Positions 11,742 through 21,219 of a stretch of 29,926 nt of DNA are shown piece after piece. The notes beneath the pieces are model-generated. The model saw only the letters and a list, made by a program, of their open reading frames with translations. It made no database searches and was not told the origin of the DNA. The stretch's first letter is position 1. Each line of letters begins with the position of its first letter. The translations under genes and the position numbers were made by a program. This DNA comes from Myxococcota bacterium (lineage in GTDB: Bacteria > Myxococcota_C > UBA6777): contig JAKLKB010000081.1 of assembly GCA_023150835.1 (NCBI GenBank), positions 1-29,926 of the forward strand, given 5' to 3'.

Positions 11742-14279
11742 ATGAAGACGCAAGATATCTTGCAGTCACTCAAGCAGCTTGGCGAATTGCGCGCCCAAGG
11801 CGTGCTTTCCGATGAAGAGTTTACACGCGAAAAAGCCGCACTAATGGGGATGTTGCAACAAGCACGCAGCTTGGCGGGAGCCTATCCCGCAGCCAAGGCC
11901 GCAGACACCTTTGCGACAGGGTTTGTTGGAACGCCACCCACCCGCGCCCCCGCCTCTTCGGACGATTCGATGGCTTCTGTCCAACGGCCCCCCCTCCACG
12001 CCCCCGCCTCTTCGGATGCTTCGAGGCTGCTTGTTGAACAGTCCTCCTCTAAGGCATCGTCCTTCCCCGAGTCCACGATCCACCCCGTTGGACGGCCTGT
12101 TGTGTTGGCGGCTGATCTCTTCGCCACAGGCTACGCAGCCCCACCGAAGCCACAAGCCTCACAGAGCCAAACCTCCGAAGAGACGCAGCTTTCTTCCTCG
12201 ACGCAGACGCAAAGCACCGAACAGGCGTTGCCTTTTCCTTTCGATGTCTCGGCTTCTTCGCGACAGGCTGCGAAGGCGGCGGATCTTTTCTCTACAGGCG
12301 GAGGGATGCCCGAAGATACGGGCGCAGAGAGGATGCGTGGGCAAGAGGGCGTTGCGCCTGTTCAAGGGCTGATCGGTGGGCGTTATCAACGGATCGCTGC
12401 GCTTGGTCGCGGTGGGATGGGAGAGATCTGGCACGTTCGCGACATCCAAAGCGGCCAAGAATACGCGCTGAAGGCGCTCCACGACGGACTGCCGCAGATG
12501 CGCGAGATGTTTGTGCGTGAATTCCAATCCCTACAACGTCTGCGCCATCCGCATATCGTGCGACTGGACGAGCTTGGACGCGATCCTGCGCTTGGGTTCT
12601 TTTTCACGATGGAACTGCTGCGCGGCGAAGATCTCCAAACGTTTCTGGATCGTGCGAAGACCGAACAACGGCATCCTTTGATCGCGCCATCTGTGCTGAT
12701 CGAATGGGTGGAGCAGATCGCACAAGCCCTTGATTCAGCCCATGCTCAGGGGATCTTGCACCTCGATCTCAAGCCTGCCAACATCTTTCTTTGCCAAGAA
12801 GGGGTGCGGCTGATCGACTTTGGGATCGCACAGATGCGGGCCTTGGCGTCGGGCCGTCCGACGATGGGGACGGTGTACTACATGGCTCCCGAACAATTGA
12901 GCGGAGATGCCGCTCTTTCTGCTGCTGCGGATGTGTATGCGCTCGGTGTTGTGGTCTACCAGATGCTGACTGGGAAGATCTTTCAAGGTGGGATGCCCGG
13001 GCCTGCGCAGATCGAGCGCTCTTTGCCGCGTGCTTTGGACGCTGTACACGAAAAAGCCACTTGTTGGCCGCCCACCGAACGCTTTCAAAAACCTTCTGCC
13101 TTGGCCGAAGCCTTGCGACGTGCGTTACAAAGCGCGCCGATCACGCCCAGCAAAGAGCTTCCTCAACCCGCGCCCACCCAAGAGCCTTCTCCACGCCAAG
13201 AGTCCGTGCGTCCTGTTTCCCCCGATCCATCGGCTGTTTCACAGGTTGTACAACTTCCGAACGCTGCGAAAGACAAACTCGCGACGTGGCCCGCAACCCA
13301 TTGGACCGAGATCCGCAAAGGCATGGATCGCAAACGCCCGCGTTGGTTGCAGACACCTTTTTTGCGCAAACCTCCACAACTTGCCCTTGCCTCGGCGCTT
13401 TCGGATGAAGAGCGCTCGACTCTCCCGATCGCTCCGTTAGCAGGATCTGTTGTGCTGTTGGATCGCTCAGGAAAACCGTTGTTGGAGCTTTGTGCGATCT
13501 CGGGCGGCACATACATCGTCGGAGCCGAAAAGCGGGACAAACAAGCGCGGCGCTCGGAAAAACCTTATCAAAAAGTCGAGATGACGGGCTTTTGGATGGC
13601 GCGCACGCTGATCACGTGTGGTCTCTGGCGGCGCTTTCTCGAAGAAAGCGGCTACGAGCCTGAGCGCGCTGATCGTCATCCAGAATATCTGTACGGCTGG
13701 ACGGGGACGAACCCACCCTCCCAAAGGTCGGGTCATCCGCCCGACCACCCGACTTCTACAGCATCCGCTCTGTTGAACATCCCTGTGACGCATCTTTCTG
13801 CGCTGCATGCGTGGGCCTTTTGTGATTTTTACGGGGTGGCTCTGCCCTCCGAGGCCCAATGGGAAGCGGCTGCACGAGGACCGCAAGCCCCGTTGTATCC
13901 GTGGGGAGACACCCCGCCACCCTCACGCGAACATGGCCCCACCAACCAAGCCAATCTCGGGCGAAACACCCATCGGCCTTCTTTTGTGTGGGCCTGTCCA
14001 GAGGGGGCTTCTGCCTTTGGTTTGCTCGATGCCGTCGGCAACGTGCGGCAGTGGGTGGCCGATGCGTTCGATGCAACGTGGCTTCAAAAACTCCATGACC
14101 GCGATCCCGTGATCCCAAGCCTCGATCGCGCTCACTTCATCTCCACCCGTGGCTCCGAGTCTTCCACCGCTCCTGATCTTGCTCAAACCTACCGACGCAG
14201 CCACGAACCCCCCGATGTCTGCCTTGCCACCGTCGGTTTCCGCCCTTGTCTCGATATCGATCCGCTGGTGTTGTTGTGA
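11742..14279 (+). CDS. Ser/Thr protein kinase fused to an FGE/sulfatase-modifying-type domain
   Basis: This 845-residue cytoplasmic signalling protein begins with a short SHOCT-like helix pair (LKQLGELRAQGVLSDEEF). A Pro/Ser-rich linker holds three related motifs of the form KAADLFATG. The kinase domain spans about 217-480: Gly loop LGRGGMGEIW, K244, catalytic loop HLDLKPAN with D342, DFG with D359, and GTVYYMAPEQ. After a second Pro-rich linker the C-terminal ~260 residues form a formylglycine-generating-enzyme-like fold (GGTYIVGAE, LPSEAQWEAAARG, YPWGD, FGLLDAVGNVRQW, TVGFRPC). Such fusions are known in myxobacteria, where the FGE part is usually a binding module. GGAGG at 11729-11733 selects ATG 11742. 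The final 36 bp recur downstream. Confidence 0.9.
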   Translation: MKTQDILQSLKQLGELRAQGVLSDEEFTREKAALMGMLQQARSLAGAYPAAKAADTFATGFVGTPPTRAPASSDDSMASVQRPPLHAPASSDASRLLVEQSSSKASSFPESTIHPVGRPVVLAADLFATGYAAPPKPQASQSQTSEETQLSSSTQTQSTEQALPFPFDVSASSRQAAKAADLFSTGGGMPEDTGAERMRGQEGVAPVQGLIGGRYQRIAALGRGGMGEIWHVRDIQSGQEYALKALHDGLPQMREMFVREFQSLQRLRHPHIVRLDELGRDPALGFFFTMELLRGEDLQTFLDRAKTEQRHPLIAPSVLIEWVEQIAQALDSAHAQGILHLDLKPANIFLCQEGVRLIDFGIAQMRALASGRPTMGTVYYMAPEQLSGDAALSAAADVYALGVVVYQMLTGKIFQGGMPGPAQIERSLPRALDAVHEKATCWPPTERFQKPSALAEALRRALQSAPITPSKELPQPAPTQEPSPRQESVRPVSPDPSAVSQVVQLPNAAKDKLATWPATHWTEIRKGMDRKRPRWLQTPFLRKPPQLALASALSDEERSTLPIAPLAGSVVLLDRSGKPLLELCAISGGTYIVGAEKRDKQARRSEKPYQKVEMTGFWMARTLITCGLWRRFLEESGYEPERADRHPEYLYGWTGTNPPSQRSGHPPDHPTSTASALLNIPVTHLSALHAWAFCDFYGVALPSEAQWEAAARGPQAPLYPWGDTPPPSREHGPTNQANLGRNTHRPSFVWACPEGASAFGLLDAVGNVRQWVADAFDATWLQKLHDRDPVIPSLDRAHFISTRGSESSTAPDLAQTYRRSHEPPDVCLATVGFRPCLDIDPLVLL

Positions 14280-14350
14280 CAAGTCTCTGTGGATACGCTC
14301 TTGTTTTTCCACAGCTTGTCTCGATATCGATCCGCTGGTGTTGTTGTGAC
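14245..14350 (+). repeat. 36-bp duplication of the kinase gene 3' end flanking a hairpin
   Basis: A 36-bp sequence covering the last codons and stop of the kinase/FGE gene (14245-14280) is repeated exactly at 14315-14350. Between them lies a 7-bp perfect hairpin, CTGTGGA (14287-14293) with TCCACAG (14308-14314), abutting the second copy. Both copies can encode the same C-terminal LDIDPLVLL. Confidence 0.92.
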
Positions 14351-14476
14351 GCCTTTTTGTTCTGGGCTTGTGCTGTTTCGTTTTTGGGGCGTGGGGGCTT
14401 GATCTTTTTTTGAACTTGTGCTGTTGTTTCTGCGTTTGTGTCCAACAACTTCGCTTGGGTGCGTGTATCCCCATCC

Positions 14477-14566
14477 GTAGAGTGTACAAATAGCCAAATT
14501 GGTTAGGCATCAGTCGGTTAAACTGAAGAATGCAGGTTCGATCCCTGCTTTGTAAATCCACTCTAC
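14477..14566 (+). ncRNA. tRNA-like RNA 1 (candidate Y RNA-like; tRNA-Asn(GTT)-like core)
   Basis: The core 14484-14556 folds as a 73-nt tRNA. It has acceptor GTACAAA/TTTGTAA with a G-A mismatch at 1:72, linker TA, a 3-bp D stem GCC/GGC with GG loop, anticodon stem TCAGT/ACTGA, a 5-nt variable loop, and T arm GCAGG-TTCGATC-CCTGC. The anticodon loop CGGTTAA would read Asn but has G instead of the near-invariant U33. The acceptor helix continues outward as GTAGAGTG (14477-14484) paired with CACTCTAC (14559-14566), leaving a 3' bulge AATC. No CCA is encoded and the 3' end is buried. It is called tRNA-like rather than tRNA for these reasons. Confidence 0.65.
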
Positions 14567-14584
14567 AAACTTGTATATGCACCC

Positions 14585-14594
14585 TTTTTTTTTT
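14585..14594 (+). terminator. T-run after tRNA-like RNA 1
   Basis: Ten consecutive T residues lie 18 nt after the outer stem of RNA 1. The RNA's own terminal helix could serve as the upstream stem, although the distance is long for a classical intrinsic terminator. Confidence 0.35.
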
Positions 14595-14623
14595 CGTGTT
14601 GTGGCGTGTGTTCTCACCCGTCA

Positions 14624-14707
14624 GCGTGTACAAATAGCTCACTTGGTAGAGCGACAGACTGATTCTCTGTAGGCAGCAGGTTCGATCCCTGTTTTGTAAA
14701 CACACGC
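14624..14707 (+). ncRNA. tRNA-like RNA 2 (candidate Y RNA-like; tRNA-Ile(GAT)-like core)
   Basis: The core 14628-14700 is again 73 nt. It has the same acceptor GTACAAA/TTTGTAA, D arm GCTC-ACTTGGTA-GAGC, anticodon stem ACAGA/TCTGT, variable AGGCA, and T arm GCAGG-TTCGATC-CCTGT. The anticodon loop CTGATTC would read GAT but has U at position 37, where a purine is expected. The acceptor helix again extends outward, here as GCGTG (14624-14628) with CACGC (14703-14707) and a 4-nt 3' bulge AACA. The outer stem sequence differs from RNA 1 but pairing and bulge position are preserved. A strong terminator follows. Confidence 0.65.
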
Positions 14708-14738
14708 CGCGAACTCGCACACTCCCTCCTTTTCTCAA

Positions 14739-14774
14739 CCCCTTCTGTTCGATGGAATAGAAGGGGTTTTTTTT
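14739..14774 (+). terminator. Strong intrinsic terminator
   Basis: CCCCTTCT (14739-14746) pairs with AGAAGGGG (14759-14766) across a 12-nt loop, followed at once by eight T residues. It ends the tRNA-like RNA unit and isolates it from the exported-protein gene at 14934. Confidence 0.9.
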
Positions 14775-16720: not shown

Positions 16721-16858
16721 GTTCGATGGTTTGTGTGGGACTCTGCCCCACGCCCCGCAAGGGACCTGTGGCCCCTTGACCCCGGTGTAGGCGAAGAGAT
16801 CACCGTGTTTTACACAGACGGCTCTGTCGCTTGAAGTGTTGCGAACACGGCTTTTTTG
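16721..16858 (+). repeat. Intergenic repeat family B, copy 3
   Basis: It shows the same block order as copy 2: GTTCGATGG, GTGGGACTCTGCCCCACGCC, CCCCGCAAGGGACC, CCCCTTGACCCCG, GTTTTACACAGACGGCTC, CGCTTGAAG, GCGAACACGGCTTTTTTG. It stops 14 bp before the sirtuin start codon, so it forms most of that operon's 5' leader or carries the preceding gene's terminator. Confidence 0.8.
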
Positions 16859-16872
16859 TCAGGGAGTTAGAG

Positions 16873-17619
16873 ATGCAGCCGATGGATTTTTCAGTGTATC
16901 GCCGGATCGTGATCTTGACAGGGGCGGGTATCTCGGTGGCTTCGGGGCTTCGGCCTTATCGCGGGGCAGGCGGTGTGTGGGGAGATATCGATCCACAAAA
17001 GGCCGCTACACGGGCGATCTTGGAACAAGATCCACAAAAAGTCTGGGAGCTTTGCAACGAACAACGCCGCCAAGTCCTGCAAAGTTCGCCCAACCCTGCG
17101 CATCTTGCGCTGGCTTCGCTCGAAGCGTCCTTGCATCCAACACAGCAGTTTTTGTTGGTGACGCAAAATGTGGATGGCTTACACCATCGGGCAGGTTCGC
17201 AGCGTGTGGTCGCGCTGCATGGCGATATCTGCCGAACACGTTGCACTTCGGCAGATTGTTCGTTGGCTGCGTTTGTGGATACCGCTGCATACACCGAACT
17301 CCCGAGGTGCTCGCGGTGTGGGTCGCCGTTGCGCCCTGATATCGTTCTGTTTGACGAGCCGTTGCCTGTGGATGCGGAATGGGCCGTCAAACGGGCATTA
17401 CGGGACTGCGATCTGTTTTTGGCGGTGGGGACTTCAGGGACGGTTGCACCTGCCTCTAACTTTGTTCGTAGTGCCGATTATGTGGGCGCTCGGACGATCT
17501 TTGTGAACTTGGAGCCGATGGATCCGCCCAATCCTTATTTTCACGAGAGTCTCTTGGGGCGGGCCGAAGAGATCTTGCCCGTCCTTTGTGGTGTTTCTCT
17601 GTCGTCCGATCCGGGGTGA
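16873..17619 (+). CDS. Sir2-family NAD-dependent protein deacylase
   Basis: This 248-residue sirtuin removes acyl groups from lysine using NAD. Motifs seen are GAGISVASGLRPYRG (NAD binding), TQNVDGLHHRAGS, catalytic H116 in ALHGD, zinc cysteines CTSADC and CSRCG, RPDIVLFDEPLP, VGTSGTVAPAS and FVNLEPMDPP. The Tyr-xx-Arg pair that marks desuccinylase-type sirtuins (WEFYxxRR) is not kept; the region reads VWELCNEQRRQ, so acyl preference may differ from CobB/SIRT5. ATG 16873 has AGGGAG at 16861-16866. It is the first gene of an apparent operon with the phosphoesterase, Ro60-like and YkgJ-like genes. Confidence 0.92.
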   Translation: MQPMDFSVYRRIVILTGAGISVASGLRPYRGAGGVWGDIDPQKAATRAILEQDPQKVWELCNEQRRQVLQSSPNPAHLALASLEASLHPTQQFLLVTQNVDGLHHRAGSQRVVALHGDICRTRCTSADCSLAAFVDTAAYTELPRCSRCGSPLRPDIVLFDEPLPVDAEWAVKRALRDCDLFLAVGTSGTVAPASNFVRSADYVGARTIFVNLEPMDPPNPYFHESLLGRAEEILPVLCGVSLSSDPG

Positions 17620-17659
17620 ACTTTGGTGGGCTTCTCTGCGTAGCGGGTTGCGAACTGTA

Positions 17660-17710
17660 CCCGCCACCCGAAGGCTTGCAATATCTTGCGGTCTTGTTCC
17701 TTCGGGCGGG
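17660..17710 (+). promoter_or_regulatory. Long hairpin between sirtuin and phosphoesterase genes
   Basis: CCCGCCACCCGAAGG (17660-17674) pairs with CCTTCGGGCGGG (17699-17710): 8 perfect bp, then GC pairs past a small bulge, with a 24-nt loop. A second, partial copy of GCGAAC..CCGCCACCCGAA(G) follows at about 17713-17737, which could form an alternative pairing. There is no T-run, so RNA processing or attenuation within the operon is more likely than termination. Confidence 0.5.
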
Positions 17711-17746
17711 CAGCGAACGATGTCCGCCACCCGAAAGAAGAAGACG

Positions 17747-18556
17747 ATGCGCATCCTCGATATCTCTGCCGAACCCATCGACGCGATCCCTTACCAGCTT
17801 GTCGCTTCCCAAGAGATGCGTGCAAAAGGCGCGGCTTCCGTGGTGTCTGCGCGATTTCCGATCTTTGAAGGGCGGGTTGATGCTTTGCCCGAAGAACTCG
17901 ATGCTTTGGTGCTTGCCTCCGATCTGCAAGGCCAGATCGATGGCGCACTGATGGGGCTATCCGTTCCCGCTTGGTTAGAATTGTTTTTGGGATTGTATTT
18001 TGAGGCGTGTTTGGCAGCGCGTGTGGGTGTGATCTTGGGCGGTGATCTGTTTTCTTTGCCGACAAAACGCGGTGGCTTGGGCGATGTGCGCGAGGTTTGG
18101 TCGGCCTTCCAACACCGTTTTCGATGGGTGGCCGGCGTATTGGGAAACCACGATCAGATCGGTTCTCGCCGCACAGAGATGCAAGCATTTCAGCACAAGC
18201 GCGGGATCTTCCTTTTCGACGGCCATTCTTCCAAAGTGGATGGCTTGCATCTTGCGGGCATCTCGGGTGTAATCGGGCGTGCAGAGAAGCCCAATTGCCG
18301 CGAAGCCACCGATTATCTGGCTTGCTTGACGCGACTTTTGCCCCAACGCCCCGATATCTTGATCTTGCACGAGCCTCCCGACTTTCCGTCCGAAGGCTTC
18401 CCGGGGCGTGTCGCTGTGCGTGAGGCGCTGGAATGTGGAGCCGCTACGTTGGTGTGCTGTGGACATCGCCATTGGCCCGAGCCTTTGCGCGAACTAACCA
18501 ACGGCACGCAAGTACTCAACTGCGAAGGCCGCATCGTGATCTTGCGCTCTGCGTAA
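17747..18556 (+). CDS. Calcineurin-like metallophosphoesterase
   Basis: This 269-residue predicted dinuclear-metal phosphoesterase shows the ordered motifs ASDLQGQ, GGDLF, GNHDQ (133-136), LHEPPD and CCGHRHWPE. The first motif is normally DxH; here the His position is Gln (SDLQ), which could alter one metal site. The substrate (nucleotide, protein or RNA end) cannot be told from sequence. ATG 17747 is chosen because the protein then starts on the first beta strand; an ATG at 17720 is in frame. The Ro60-like gene starts 36 bp downstream, so co-transcription is likely. Confidence 0.85.
   Translation: MRILDISAEPIDAIPYQLVASQEMRAKGAASVVSARFPIFEGRVDALPEELDALVLASDLQGQIDGALMGLSVPAWLELFLGLYFEACLAARVGVILGGDLFSLPTKRGGLGDVREVWSAFQHRFRWVAGVLGNHDQIGSRRTEMQAFQHKRGIFLFDGHSSKVDGLHLAGISGVIGRAEKPNCREATDYLACLTRLLPQRPDILILHEPPDFPSEGFPGRVAVREALECGAATLVCCGHRHWPEPLRELTNGTQVLNCEGRIVILRSA

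Positions 18557-21219
<2,663 letters not shown>

Follow-up and report, generated by a model that had tools for sequence, protein, structure and literature searches.

Organization of the locus

The window (the whole stretch of DNA analyzed, 29,926 nucleotides) corresponds to contig C14 in draft genome G000 (7.56 Mb); the MAGs closest to this genome are myxococcotal or deltaproteobacterial (KLAP109, NP119). It contains two tRNA-like elements and, about 4 kb downstream of them with other genes between, a gene for a Ro60-like protein. The positions of these features are presented in Table 1. The phosphoesterase ORF ends 10 nt before the Ro60-like ORF, and the Sir2, phosphoesterase, Ro60-EF-Tu and CxxCxxCC genes (16831-21219), which overlap or abut one another, probably constitute one operon. 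With respect to the intrinsic terminator directly 3' of the second element, a scan of the region returned 2 such sites where 1.3 were expected in shuffles. A direct repeat of at least 35 bases (14245-14279 and 14315-14349) was also observed, involving the end of a kinase/FGE-sulfatase gene and the spacer after it.

Table 1. Features of the window, with positions, strand and the evidence for each (R1, covariance model, scores in bits).
Feature	Position	Strand	Detail or evidence
Candidate Y RNA copy 1, whole predicted RNA	14457..14594	+	R1 101.0 bits; fold z -5.2; covariation in 22 sequences
Copy 1 terminal helix	14457-14468/14573-14584	+	GGGTGCGTGTAT/GTATATGCACCC, 12 pairs including G-U, then T10
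Copy 1 internal loop	between terminal helix and helix 2	+	CCCCATCC / AAACTT
Copy 1 helix 2 (outer helix of the initial annotation)	14477-14484/14559-14566	+	GTAGAGTG / CACTCTAC
Copy 1 tRNA-like module	14484..14556	+	arms in the usual tRNA order (D, anticodon, T); anticodon loop CGGTTAA
Candidate Y RNA copy 2	14606..14722	+	R1 93.7 bits; minimum-energy structure
Copy 2 terminal helix	14606-14611/14717-14722	+	GTGTGT/GCACAC, 6 bp
Copy 2 internal loop	between terminal helix and helix 2	+	contains TCTCACC / CGCGAACTC
Copy 2 helix 2	14624-14628/14703-14707	+	GCGTG / CACGC
Copy 2 tRNA-like module	14628..14700	+	anticodon loop CTGATTC
Intrinsic terminator directly 3' of copy 2	14737-14774	+	14-bp stem then T tract
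Sir2-family protein	16831..17619	+	overlaps next ORF
Calcineurin-like phosphoesterase ORF	17588..18556	+	Metallophos E 4.5e-4, just under Pfam cut-off; start codon uncertain
Ro60-like protein, 646 aa	18566..20506	+	Pfam/NCBIfam, PDB profile search, AlphaFold, VIA-align
Ro60 ring (TROVE-like repeats + vWA, DKSAS MIDAS)	residues 20-514		alignment to 1YVP
EF-Tu domain III	residues 550-641		Pfam/NCBIfam; Z 13.4, rmsd 2.0, 28% identity

Predicted structure of the two RNAs

The initial annotation had described two tRNA folds with a shared acceptor, a 1:72 mismatch, no CCA and 4-nt 3' bulges, together with outer helices that differ between the copies (GTAGAGTG/CACTCTAC and GCGTG/CACGC) and pair in each, and all of this was borne out when the sequence was checked letter by letter. 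The acceptor GTACAAA/TTTGTAA and the G1/A72 mismatch are common to both copies, CCA is encoded at positions 74-76 in neither, and the bulges read AATC in copy 1 and AACA in copy 2. The odd loop positions it had pointed out, G33 in the first anticodon loop and U37 in the second, are likewise present. Its extent of 14477-14707 captured a real element but stopped about 15-20 nt short on each side, missing an internal loop and a terminal helix. Each tRNA fold caps a two-part stem made up of helix 2, an internal loop with 5' CCYYA opposite 3' AACTY, and the terminal helix.

The fold of copy 1 has an energy of -44.3 kcal/mol (z -5.2), which was equaled by none of 200 shuffles. The structure predicted for copy 2 is its minimum-energy fold, but with a z of only -0.6 against shuffles this copy is unconvincing alone, and the comparative evidence decides. 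On the sequence evidence, the RNA is most likely a non-coding molecule of about 115-130 nt in which a complete, unpermuted tRNA cloverleaf sits on a two-part stem formed by its own 5' and 3' ends.

Comparison with tRNA genes

Both copies were called by ARAGORN, as tRNA-Asn(GTT) at 14483-14560 and tRNA-Ile(GAT) at 14628-14701, and both were matched by the Rfam tRNA model RF00005 with 52.7 and 53.2 bits, which is above the cut-off and near the bottom of the 60 tRNA matches of the genome. An Rfam scan of the window at gathering score and at E up to 10 returned only tRNA and chance matches. Of the features of a translational tRNA, a paired 1:72 is missing from both copies, U33 from copy 1 and a purine at position 37 from copy 2. 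A normal tRNA-Asn(GTT) is present elsewhere in the same genome. No other tRNA-Ile(GAT) was seen among the tRNA loci of the draft assembly, from which ribosomal operons, its usual place, may be missing. Across the wider family, U33 is kept in 66 of 87 scored copies and the anticodon triplets are highly varied, these being rough counts from a crude stem finder. Also present in the same genome are a tRNA array and several tRNA genes that are degenerate and have unusual anticodon arms (G000:C34:14046-15573, C200, C201).

The Ro60-like protein

The initial annotation had placed a TROVE/VWA gene 4 kb downstream, and structure comparison agreed with that assignment. The AlphaFold model of the 646-residue protein (pLDDT 84.7) contains a ring and vWA fold that aligns to Xenopus Ro60 (1YVP) with Z 21.0 and an rmsd of 3.9 over 445 residues, and it also aligns with human Ro60, D. 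radiodurans Rsr and the Ro60 of phage phiLo. A profile built from 29 family members retrieved human RO60 from the PDB at E 2.2e-7. The vWA_Ro60 profile scored 26.2 bits against a cut-off of 27.7, and the TROVE profile gave no match. While the entire ring and vWA fold is thus shared with known Ro60/Rsr proteins (1YVP, 2NVO, phage phiLo 9L5Y; Z 17-21), identity to them is only about 15%, the window protein lacks a Pfam TROVE match, and in two genera EF-Tu domain III is appended. The GTPase domain I and domain II of EF-Tu are absent, leaving domain III alone. This fusion was observed only in G000, G001 and G003, which represent two myxococcotal genera; the other homologues inspected end before domain III.

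Covariation of the stem

The outer helix had been proposed to carry compensatory changes, and in 22 sequences it proved to covary across phyla and to be kept in relatives. In the 22-sequence alignment (A3), whose members were picked partly for looking alike, RNAalifold returned 29 pairs, 24 of them with compensatory changes. Paired cells made up 97.5% in these sequences, compared with 75.7% when columns were shuffled and 33-50% with the 3' partners slid, and 153 double-change cells were observed versus 44 in the control. Outside the tRNA, double changes were found in 7 of 8 terminal-helix pairs and in all 8 helix 2 pairs (15/16 together). The internal loop reads roughly CCYUAAC / (R)ACUUG across phyla. 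A motif scan found the stem at family loci, with almost no matches in shuffled sequence. Under covariance model R1, family members score at least 78 bits and ordinary tRNAs no more than 52 bits in the genomes of the relatives. This score gap was used in place of a flank-duplex energy test against array tRNAs, because that energy is uninformative where neighboring tRNAs pair with one another.

Distribution of the RNA family

Contig C77 of G000 carries a third, unlinked copy, which has an outer helix of its own (CCAAAGTG/CACTTTGG) and a perfect 14-bp terminal helix (GTTGGGGTCTGTAC/GTACAGACCCCAAC). The search of sister genomes suggested at the outset was productive: relatives carry the RNA with a conserved outer stem. 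G003, which belongs to another genus, has three tandem copies directly upstream of its Ro60-like gene, with the triplets TGG, GTC and CTT, and G004 has a single copy with a degenerate acceptor. When genome contigs were scanned with the protein, 80 loci were retrieved, among them loci of Cyanobacteria, Planctomycetota and an acidobacterium. Members of the RNA family are present in these three sources, in Myxococcota and on phage contigs, usually with the Ro60-like gene a short way downstream on the same strand. At most cyanobacterial loci ARAGORN reports isolated "tRNAs", for example of Pyl(CTA) or A34 types, up to five in tandem, at distances upstream of the gene that range from a few hundred bases to about 2 kb; those examined share the two-part stem. 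Locus L136 carries several tandem copies with differing anticodons. The same Y stem occurs without the tRNA module at many loci, as around the Nostoc gene in L138, which points to the stem as the common part and the distal module as the part that varies. Y-stem RNAs with other distal modules, some shorter than 90 nt, were observed at L138:7886-7943, L165:7118-7255 and L102:8935-9053.

Co-occurrence of the RNA and the Ro60-like gene

Among 60 relatives, RNA scores of at least 78 bits were obtained only in G000, G001, G003 and G004, which are exactly the carriers of the protein, and in all the others no score exceeded 52 bits. Among 98 cyanobacteria, RNA (E<1e-11) and protein (E<1e-20) were both found in the identical six genomes (G109, G125, G141, G156, G177, G191), an agreement with a probability of about 1e-9 under random placement if shared ancestry is ignored. 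Seven viral contigs were found to encode the protein, and the RNA is present on every one of them, with at least 59.7 bits; RNA and protein also occur together in a 595-kb uncultured phage record and on a cyanobacterial (Kovacikia) plasmid. Some of the RNAs lie on contigs separate from the protein gene (C77, and contigs of G141 and G177). Of 20 other protein-bearing genomes, 15 had an RNA match at E 1e-7 or better and 5 had no strong match, so the partnership is not universal at the sensitivity of R1.

Arrays of 10 to 40 tRNA genes were seen within 8 kb of the Ro60-like gene, and upstream of it, at 12 of the 80 loci (L120, L125, L128, L131, L136, L142, L154, L156, L160, L165, L166 and L173). 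Viral contigs L225 and L226 likewise contain clusters of tRNA genes. Two of the array loci include complete EF-Tu genes (L166:6615-7865, a cyanobacterium; L131:2859-4058, Phycisphaerae), and apart from the fusion it is on these two loci that the EF-Tu linkage rests. RtcB is encoded in three of the four myxococcotal genomes, elsewhere than beside the RNAs.

Comparison with known RNAs

A search with the Rfam YrlA model, as the initial annotation had suggested, gave no match, and it is the Rfam tRNA model that matches both copies. YrlA (RF02553) was not detected in the window or in the loci of relatives at the gathering score of 69 bits, nor in the window element at E up to 10, and across 21 genomes only sub-threshold matches were returned, several of them on tRNA genes. 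The YrlA consensus runs stem, T arm (GCGGGuUCGAgaCCCGC), closed hairpin, D arm (GUAGCUCAauuuGGUAGAGC), stem, and structure 6CU1 of YrlA shows the tRNA arms in circularly permuted order (PMC11472068). In YrlA of Salmonella and Mycobacterium, whose partner is Rsr, a stem built from the paired 5' and 3' ends faces Ro60 and lies below a distal tRNA-like module, the gene adjoins that of the Ro60 homologue, and AACUUG lies on the 3' strand of the stem internal loop, all as in the RNAs described here. However, the YrlA module follows the permuted order just given and lacks a free anticodon arm, whereas the window RNAs have the order D, anticodon, T, with the acceptor stem as the junction and an anticodon loop that is free and varied. 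By anatomy and partnership, therefore, the window RNAs look like Y RNAs, and by their unpermuted arms, acceptor junction and lack of a YrlA match they are not YrlA. Of the initial proposal that these are Y RNAs and not translational tRNAs, the core has held, given the covariation and the same-genome occurrence; the parallel with YrlA as such has not.

The Ro60 site of vertebrate Y RNAs is a 7-bp helix with one bulged C and a 3-nt bulge on the other strand (PMC4726728). The window RNAs resemble it in having a helix interrupted by a C-containing bulge or loop on the 5' strand and a bulge of a few nt on the 3' strand, and in occurring beside a Ro60 protein; they differ in sequence, loop module and tRNA fold, and the likeness is one of anatomy. 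Like tmRNA, they have a long stem that closes off a tRNA-like module, and they are connected with EF-Tu; unlike it, they lack an aminoacylation end, a coding part and an SmpB link, and their genomic partner is a Ro60. Burroughs and Aravind in 2016 reportedly described a tRNA-like RNA with SPFH/Band-7 proteins.

Interpretation

Judged from sequence and predicted structure, the window elements very probably represent a subclass of Y RNA partnered by Ro60. This subclass of bacterial Y RNA looks new, and earlier bacterial Y RNA surveys may already mention members. The Ro60-like ring would bind at the CCYYA/AACUY internal loop of the lower stem, and the closed 5' and 3' ends would block CCA addition and aminoacylation, so that the RNA would not be used in translation. 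The tRNA-like module would project from the ring and engage tRNA-binding partners as a docking or gating element. In the fusion lineage EF-Tu domain III may help, and by analogy with EF-Tu it could grip the T stem, a tentative and somewhat doubtful suggestion. The RNP may handle damaged tRNA, serving as a tether or gate or possibly as a decoy. Such a role in tRNA damage is the most likely function, although we regard it as evenly balanced; it is suggested by loci that gather tRNA arrays and EF-Tu copies and by phages that carry the same pair. The tether or gate and decoy versions are inseparable on present evidence. In D. radiodurans a Y RNA is the tether between Rsr and PNPase.

Acceptance of both copies by ARAGORN and Rfam, and the want of another tRNA-Ile(GAT) in a draft that perhaps misses ribosomal operons, would fit translational tRNAs for Asn and Ile whose leader and trailer pair fortuitously before maturation by RNase P and the CCA-adding enzyme. 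This is extremely improbable, as the leader-trailer pairing is kept by compensatory changes across phyla, the copies have a 1:72 mismatch, G33 or U37 and no CCA, a normal tRNA-Asn(GTT) lies elsewhere, G003 has other triplets (TGG, GTC, CTT), and presence follows the Ro60-like gene rather than codon need. tRNA pseudogenes left by an integrating element were also considered and rejected; their stem would not covary and their copies would not track the Ro60-like gene. It is highly improbable that the elements are cis-acting leaders or attenuators, T-box-like or terminator-like, controlling the downstream gene: although copy 1 ends in a stem followed by T10 and the usual place of a copy is on the strand of the Ro60-like gene and upstream of it, there are unlinked copies in other settings (C77 and the separate contigs in G141 and G177), the window Ro60-like gene is 4 kb away behind other genes, and tandem copies with different anticodons occur at one locus (L136).

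A functional variant compatible with the Y RNA reading is that the tRNA-like modules have diversified as bait for anticodon nucleases and are not tethers or gates. The many triplets, the several copies per locus and the nearby tRNA arrays and phages speak for it, as does the competitive-inhibitor role against an anticodon nuclease suggested for YrlA in Salmonella (PMC7790460). With positions 33 and 37 relaxed, the triplet variety could equally have come about by drift in a loop that is not used, and we consider the bait variant unlikely. A broader picture, which we regard as distinctly unlikely, would have panels of anticodon-diversified tRNA mimics on Ro60 rings in bacteria and large phages, EF-Tu-clamped in one lineage; such non-translating bait would absorb or sense anticodon nucleases, and adjacent arrays would replace the tRNAs that are lost.

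As Ro60-partnered Y RNAs, the elements would offer a second, topologically different route by which Y RNAs mimic tRNA. This suggests that tRNA mimicry with Ro60 had more than one origin or was rewired, and hence that it is functionally important. They would also account for many odd "tRNA" calls (Pyl, Sec and A34 anticodons) beside Ro60-like genes in cyanobacteria. The gene fusion ties Ro60 to EF-Tu, and the partner, a bacterial protein related to the human autoantigen Ro60, travels with the RNA through several bacterial phyla and large phages. Culturable carriers (Nostoc punctiforme NIES-2108, Nostoc carneum NIES-2107, Kovacikia minuta) would make the function of the tRNA-like module in Y RNAs directly accessible.

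Genes downstream of Ro60-like genes

Varied combinations of a vWA protein, an uncharacterized protein of 280-310 aa and a ThiF/E1-like adenylyltransferase were observed 3' of the Ro60-like gene (L165:9525-12027, L102:5817-9912 and L130:11325-12831). These neighbors hint at a link to ubiquitin-like conjugation.
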